Of a stretch of DNA of 58,723 nt, positions 4,872-5,072 are shown in pieces (the stretch's first letter is position 1; each line of letters begins with the position of its first letter). Below the pieces are notes generated by a model that saw only the letters and a program-made list of their open reading frames with translations, did not search any database and was not told the DNA's origin. The stretch is from Sphingomonas sp. GTDB taxonomy: Bacteria; Pseudomonadota; Alphaproteobacteria; Sphingomonadales; Sphingomonadaceae. The DNA lies in the NCBI GenBank assembly GCA_002707985.1, contig PAOI01000008.1, forward strand, positions 1 to 58,723, read 5' to 3'. The position numbers were made by a program, and so were the translations under genes.

Positions 4872-5072
4872 ACGCCCCTTCCCTGAACCAAAGGCGCCCG
4901 ATCCTGCGGATGTTCGGGACTCCGTCAAGCAAACATTAGTTAACGGAAATTCCTTAAGAATCGTTAAGTTGGCGGAACATTTGTCGGACCCCCGAGATAT
5001 TGAGTCCGAAACTTATCCACAGGCACAAGCGATGGGGTGTGACCCGAAAGACTCACTTATCCACAGGCTCTG
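4872..5072. promoter_or_regulatory. ccrM upstream region: four GANTC sites, two DnaA boxes, TTAA half-sites
   Basis: This 200-bp gap holds GANTC sites at 4918-4922, 4958-4962, 5002-5006 and 5050-5054, spaced 40, 44 and 48 bp. Perfect DnaA boxes TTATCCACA lie at 5013-5021 and 5057-5065, same orientation, 44 bp apart, each preceded within 2-6 bases by a GANTC site. Between 4940 and 4967 there are three TTAA elements that resemble CtrA half-sites, although the spacings (10 and 6) differ from the textbook 7. The gap lies between the start of ccrM and the end of the radical-SAM gene, so it is ccrM's promoter region. The motifs are seen directly; the regulation is inferred. Confidence 0.75.

Follow-up and report, generated by a model that had tools for sequence, protein, structure and literature searches.

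The window, as we call the whole 58,723-nucleotide stretch of Sphingomonas DNA analyzed here, carries ccrM, the gene for the GANTC adenine methyltransferase, on its minus strand (3744 to 4871; 376 codons according to the ORF call and a length check, with the ATG at 4871-4869 and the stop codon at 3741-3743). Going by the ORF list and the sequence, the next minus-strand ORF after ccrM ends at 5073 and bounds a promoter gap of 201 bp (4872 to 5072, minus strand). That ORF (5073 to 6761, minus strand, 562 amino acids) looks radical SAM/SPASM-like by eye and sits here between ccrM and rnhB (6858 to 7547, also named by eye); in many relatives, rnhB is found directly upstream of ccrM. Moving away from the start codon, the gap contains a candidate -35 element, TTGACG (4923 to 4928, minus strand), with a first GANTC site (4918 to 4922) directly after it on the downstream side; TTAA elements at 4940, 4954, and 4964; a full CtrA-type motif, TTAA-N6-TTAA (4954 to 4967), into the spacer of which a second GANTC site reaches (4958 to 4962, from the motif search); two NrdR-type boxes (4990 to 5005 and 5023 to 5038, reading CCCCGAGATATTGAGT and GCACAAGCGATGGGGT, respectively, on the plus strand); a third GANTC site (5002 to 5006) that overlaps the inner end of the box nearer ccrM; a perfect DnaA box, TTATCCACA (5013 to 5021, plus strand), inside the 17-bp spacer between the NrdR-type boxes; a fourth GANTC site (5050 to 5054), which begins the conserved block GAGTCyTTnnGnCACACC; and a second perfect DnaA box, again TTATCCACA (5057 to 5065, plus strand). 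The two perfect DnaA boxes on one strand, 44 bp apart, the four GANTC sites, and the TTAA elements had all been listed for this 201-bp gap by the first-pass annotation and were found where it had put them. The NrdR-type pair was missing from that annotation and is commoner in the family (89 of 106 loci) than perfect DnaA boxes (43 of 106).

The case for the gap rests on its conservation, as the density of its elements alone is ordinary in the window. A CcrM match was found in 58 of the 61 genomes searched, including the window's own, and the nearest relative's CcrM is 97% identical. From 110 ccrM loci, 80 of which were the best 80 of a larger list, we removed the exact duplicates L009 and L025 and the Rhizobiales loci L109 and L110; eight near-duplicate pairs remain among the resulting 106 loci, as does the window's own locus (L001), and "family" is an approximate label for this set because L085 and L108 carry no family name. 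A further 80 order and class loci were made up of 20 order relatives, out of 22 in which CcrM was matched, and 60 picked class-wide from a list with a match in 176 of 241 genomes, two of the 60 (L131 and L132) belonging to the same family. Alignment revealed four conserved blocks upstream of the proximal promoter: GAGTCyTTnnGnCACACC, CACATnTTGAGTC, GACTCAACATCTTGTGG, and GACTCnTTTCGTTCC. When a sequence model of these blocks was searched with (E ≤0.01), the ccrM gap was the sole place found in 18 of 19 same-genus genomes, with the exception of two weak reverse-strand matches at the same site; the one same-genus genome without a match (G007) is also without a CcrM match. In 12 genomes from other families of the order, the block model found no match.

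Together, the second and third blocks make up a dyad resembling a pair of NrdR boxes by their consensus, and on account of this resemblance a half-site matrix was built from nrdA promoters and scanned elsewhere. An initial matrix, which took GACTC as its anchor and ccrM loci as its training set, had put one of the later used nrdA boxes on top at only 4 of 10 nrdA loci (L197, L201, L202, and L205, two of them with low scores) and gave way to matrices for which nrd promoters were the training set and ccrM the test set. The nrdA matrix stems from the promoters of ten sphingomonad genomes, this one included (14 nrd loci scanned and ten used, with L204 replaced by the overlapping L213); its training pairs were chosen by us, several by eye, and those of L197, L198, L199, L201, and L213 differ from the top pair of the consensus scan. 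For the second matrix, 14 pairs were taken out of 23 nrd loci from other families of the order, 16 of which have a best pair scoring at least 20.

Scanned across the 58.7-kb window, the nrdA matrix ranked the pair at 4990-5005 and 5023-5038 first, with a score of 23.2, the next pair reaching 10.7. The second matrix likewise detected both boxes: its best pair (14.4) joins the 4990 box to a partner at 4959, the 4990/5023 pair comes second (13.0), and the best pair elsewhere scores 8.2, so that the box nearer ccrM takes part in the top pair of one matrix and the two best pairs of the other. In the family, the upstream pair outscored every other pair of its locus (a span of at most about 4 kb) in 99 of 106 cases with the nrdA matrix, and the second matrix placed its top pair upstream of ccrM in 96 of the 106 family loci and in all 20 order loci. 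A score of at least 14 with the nrdA matrix was reached by 89 of 106 family loci versus 6 of 1,060 shuffles, the other 17 loci scoring lower; at the two Rhizobiales ccrM loci, this matrix found no NrdR-type pair. Pairs scoring at least 14 have a spacer of 17 bp in 55 loci, 16 bp in 31, and 15 bp in 3, spacers of 14 to 17 bp being the only ones tried. With the NrdR consensus, the spacing profile peaks at a spacer of 17 (excess, 5.5), but the excess at all other spacers from 8 to 33 is 2.3 to 5.0, making this profile weak by itself. GANTC occurs at the inner end of the nearer box, the place of the 5002 site, in 78 of 106 loci and at that of the farther box in 60; 16 loci have a DnaA box within the spacer. 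An nrdR gene scored over the family cutoff in all ten genomes tested (here, G000:C39:3335-3760). In the part of a study of ribonucleotide reductase operators drawn on here (PMC12051234), NrdR tetramers loaded with dATP and ATP bind paired boxes, and two 16-bp palindromes with spacers of 14 to 17 bp, a range that includes the 17 bp of the window pair, were bound by all four NrdR proteins tested.

A rnhB gene ends within 1.5 kb upstream of ccrM in 59 of the 106 family loci and in most of the class loci compared. Six other families of the order contributed 20 loci. In every one of them, the top-scoring nrd-type pair within the 450 bp upstream lies inside rnhB, its spacer is 16 bp long, and it includes the rnhB words GGATATGG or GCRCTA; the boxes of this rnhB-borne pair hold no GANTC in any of the 20 yet keep the NrdR form. 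Codons could be compared in the 19 of these loci that fit NAGYG(T/V)...ALxxVG (L127 did not), and although the genomes of the order are akin and the counts thus not independent, the leucine codon in the second box was CTA in 19 of 19 (versus 7 of 134 leucine codons elsewhere in the same reading frames), the tyrosine codon in the first box was TAT in 19 of 19 (elsewhere, 22 of 38), and alanine codons within the boxes were GCA in 32 of 36 (elsewhere, 46 of 228). The same leucine codon is CTA in only 1 of 58 Sphingomonadaceae, where the pair is intergenic. Such frozen synonymous codons suggest a signal at the DNA level rather than a protein constraint, even if the order also shows similar amino acids around the second box, and the comparison led us away from the idea that the rnhB pairs are a protein-coding coincidence. 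The same words of rnhB also occur in L174, a single locus from outside the order. Among the order and class loci together, 31 of 80 score at least 14, versus 10 of 800 shuffles; many of these 31 are rnhB pairs, two are same-family loci, and some lie close above ccrM in other families (for example, L176 and L180). On account of such pairs near ccrM in other families, a link between NrdR and ccrM, if real, may predate the order. Separately, we noted NrdR-type pairs just above some of the ccrM genes of other alphaproteobacterial families (L176, L180, and L155 are examples), in part with a GANTC at the inner half-sites.

The proximal part of the promoter is of a more widespread kind. Of the 106 family loci, 86 have TTGAC with a GANTC within 7 bp, as do 54 of the 80 order and class loci, and two GANTC sites near TTGAC were found in 48 and 40 of them, respectively, the start sites being candidates only. 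In the window, a CtrA-type motif lies upstream of the candidate -35. The full motif, TTAA-N6/7-TTAA, had to be discarded as a family trait, with the window's own copy the single instance among 106 loci; the CtrA half-site TTAACCAT, on either strand, occurs in 32 of 106 family loci versus 0 of 1,060 shuffles. The NrdR-type boxes lie 62 to 115 bp upstream of the candidate -35.

The first-pass annotation had called the 40- to 48-bp steps between the four GANTC sites regular. The sites and steps (40, 44, and 48 bp) are present, but in this genome alone such regularity means little: the pairwise distances (40, 44, 48, 84, 92, and 132) do not closely match the phasing of the family, and density was set aside as evidence by itself, other stretches of the window holding four GANTC sites and one holding five (within about 150 bp, at 31123-31269). 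In relatives, the array is denser than here and strongly phased. The 106 family upstream regions have a mean of 5.36 GANTC sites per 200 bp versus 0.28 expected from the coding and downstream flanks of the same loci, which, rather than other promoters, served as the background for both GANTC and DnaA boxes, and 102 of the 106 have at least three. GAGTC/GACTC accounts for 473 of 568 sites in the upstream array versus 98 of 370 in the flanks. The sites recur with a period of 9.8 bp, the score being 0.50 for all loci and 0.55 for one locus per name label, compared with maxima of 0.09 and 0.19, respectively, in 300 random placements. It is this density, composition, and phasing that speak for the phased sites and a GAGTC-N15-GACTC dyad forming a cooperative platform for GcrA, CcrM, or a reader of hemimethylation, with the likeness to NrdR boxes a mere consequence of the dyad; GcrA binds methylated GANTC in Caulobacter, according to the portion of PMC3667746 used here. 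Against such an origin of the likeness stands the pair within rnhB, where the NrdR form and the 16-bp spacer are kept in 20 of 20 loci with no GANTC in the boxes, and the site is also found by matrices derived from nrd promoters, among which only the repeated box of L201 and L205 starts within a GANTC. We consider this methylation-array reading rather improbable, and we favor a predicted NrdR operator.

The first-pass annotation had proposed a DnaA/CcrM feedback loop acting through the two perfect DnaA boxes. The 58.7-kb window has no perfect box besides these two, and the 3.48-Mb assembly has seven in all, against 12 occurrences of the reversed control word; by that comparison, perfect boxes are not enriched genome-wide, and it is only their pairing that sets the gap apart. 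Across the family, a perfect box lies within 200 bp upstream of ccrM in 43 of 106 loci, with none in 271 kb of coding and downstream flanks of the same loci and an average of 0.1 loci, at most 18, for permuted 9-mers (2,000 permutations). Box-bearing loci are spread unevenly over the groups (19 of 51 Sphingomonas loci, 22 of 28 Erythrobacteraceae-type loci, and 2 of 27 others), with the perfect box absent from 7 of 7 Sphingopyxis, 9 of 9 Novosphingobium, and 32 of 51 Sphingomonas loci and from 63 of the 106 in all. Nor is its position fixed. The box lies at about -146 to -160, like the one at 5013, in 17 of the 19 box-bearing Sphingomonas loci; in 20 of the 22 Erythrobacteraceae-type loci with a box, it is within 70 bp of the start codon. 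The 5013 box thus recurs at a similar distance in part of the Sphingomonas loci; the 5057 box has a same-distance counterpart only in the nearest relative, L002, and five further loci hold a second box at other places.

With boxes missing from many loci and their positions moving between about -150 and -30, a two-box loop is not the conserved core of the promoter. A broader version, in which the DnaA boxes are the main switch tying ccrM to initiation and the palindromes are incidental, can draw on the 43 boxes set against none in 271 kb, on the arrangement GANTC-A-N1-6-TGTGGATAA in 19 of 28 Erythrobacteraceae-type loci, and on the DnaA sites at ccrM predicted by Brilli et al. in 2010 (PMC2877005, in the part consulted). 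It too has to contend with the 63 loci that lack a perfect box, with the unfixed position, and with a palindrome pair that is more widespread (89 of 106), and we regard it as unlikely. What survives is a plausible DnaA input to ccrM, likely in part of the family rather than as a constant feature. The gap was also considered as a replication origin, an idea that was dropped: the window has just these two perfect boxes, and cumulative GC skew in 4-kb steps makes no clear turn. Elsewhere in the same assembly, two perfect DnaA boxes, 386 bp from each other, occur in the vicinity of RecQ-like and HerA-like ORFs (L194:2511 and 2897, G000 C53), and another, with a one-mismatch neighbor at 1509, lies near the end of a ClpX-like ORF (L192:1525, G000 C35), all ORFs being named by eye.

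That the elements are short words without relation to one another, lying in a gap richer in AT and alike through common descent, is a very remote prospect: GANTC density is indeed unexceptional in this genome and the loci are related and hence not independent, but conservation extends over 21 name labels and contrasts with shuffles and flanks alike.

The best reading of the gap is that of a composite cell-cycle promoter of ccrM, in which ccrM is probably a target of NrdR (we put this at roughly 60%), with additional GANTC- and CtrA-type input and, in some lineages, DnaA-type input. For binding, repression, timing, DnaA action, and the effect of methylation at ccrM, we infer the following scheme. 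The proximal promoter, TTGACG plus GANTC, would be of the type acted on by GcrA and CcrM in Caulobacter and common throughout the class. Above its -35, the two 16-bp imperfect palindromes with their 17-bp spacer would serve as the NrdR operator: when deoxynucleoside triphosphates (dNTPs) accumulate and forks idle, NrdR carrying dATP and ATP would occupy the pair and keep ccrM repressed, and replication, by drawing dATP down, would release ccrM, such that methylation capacity tracks DNA synthesis. In this Sphingomonas, DnaA acting at the box in the spacer might either compete with NrdR or strengthen its effect around initiation. As GANTC overlaps an operator half-site, the CcrM mark may feed back on NrdR binding, with the methylation state after fork passage tuning it, and the proximal GANTC and CtrA-type half-sites would supply methylation and CtrA inputs as in Caulobacter. 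The great distance of the boxes above the likely start counts against simple repression; a second promoter at the NrdR-type boxes is possible. One expression data set does not fit this scheme simply. Upon a shift to anoxia, ccrM in Sphingopyxis granuli TFA reportedly falls 7-fold, dropping fast at first and recovering in part after 6 h, and nrdZ rises strongly (PMC6472365, in the part used here); if dNTPs fall under these conditions, simple NrdR derepression predicts a rise in ccrM. More tentatively, and with considerable doubt as to the whole, we propose that throughout the Sphingomonadales CcrM may belong to the NrdR regulon, with dNTP supply gating methylation and the CcrM mark feeding back, and that the operator may have been kept by selection, as frozen codons within rnhB in related families or, in most Sphingomonadaceae, between genes, in some of them with a DnaA box in the spacer.

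To our knowledge, the timing of ccrM expression has been little studied outside a few model alphaproteobacteria. An NrdR input, if true, would tie DNA methylation to dNTP supply, a direct report of replication, and would bring an epigenetic enzyme into the NrdR regulon. Since the operator can be methylated, the feedback is open to direct experiment, and where the operator lies within the neighboring gene, it would clearly exemplify how regulation can constrain the codons used. In a full-text search of largely open-access literature, judged by titles and abstract openings, no NrdR-ccrM link turned up, and a prior prediction is possible. The words ccrM and methyltransferase do not occur in the main text of an NrdR reconstruction (PMC5343134), and the sections of PMC2500167 drawn on treat NrdR and ccrM apart; an early paper on the NrdR regulon is that of Rodionov and Gelfand from 2005, as cited in PMC12051234.

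Several known systems share parts of this architecture, each compared through those sections of the sources at hand. The NrdR operators of ribonucleotide reductase genes (PMC12051234) also consist of two 16-bp palindromes with about 3 helical turns between their centers, but here the target is ccrM, the site lies far above the promoter or inside the upstream gene, and the commonest spacer in the ccrM family loci is 17 bp rather than 15 to 16. At Escherichia coli nrdAB (PMC2500167), under cell-cycle control, DnaA 9-mers occur together with an inverted repeat farther upstream, maybe an NrdR target, so that ccrM would here resemble an nrd promoter in its inputs; nrdAB differs in that the gene here encodes a methyltransferase, one GANTC site overlaps the operator, and a DnaA box sits in the operator spacer. 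Caulobacter ccrM and other GcrA/CcrM promoters (PMC3973325, PMC3667746, and PMC4287350) are alike in having GANTC near the core, CtrA-type sites, and probable autoregulation of ccrM by methylation, whereas Caulobacter ccrM is described as CtrA activated and late, and these sections mention neither an NrdR input nor a large phased GANTC array. In the corresponding part of the work of Brilli et al. (PMC2877005), DnaA sites are predicted at alphaproteobacterial ccrM mainly where CtrA sites are lacking, and averages of 0.4 to 1.5 GANTC sites per promoter are given, with no array, NrdR site, or fixed architecture described.

Finally, GANTC sites are not confined to the ccrM side of the comparison. 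Several of the nrdA promoters (L196 to L203, L205, and L213) carry GANTC above their NrdR-type boxes, in L198, L202, and L203 as a tandem (GAATCGAGTC or GAATCGAATC), and nrdA and ccrM may therefore share more than one regulator.
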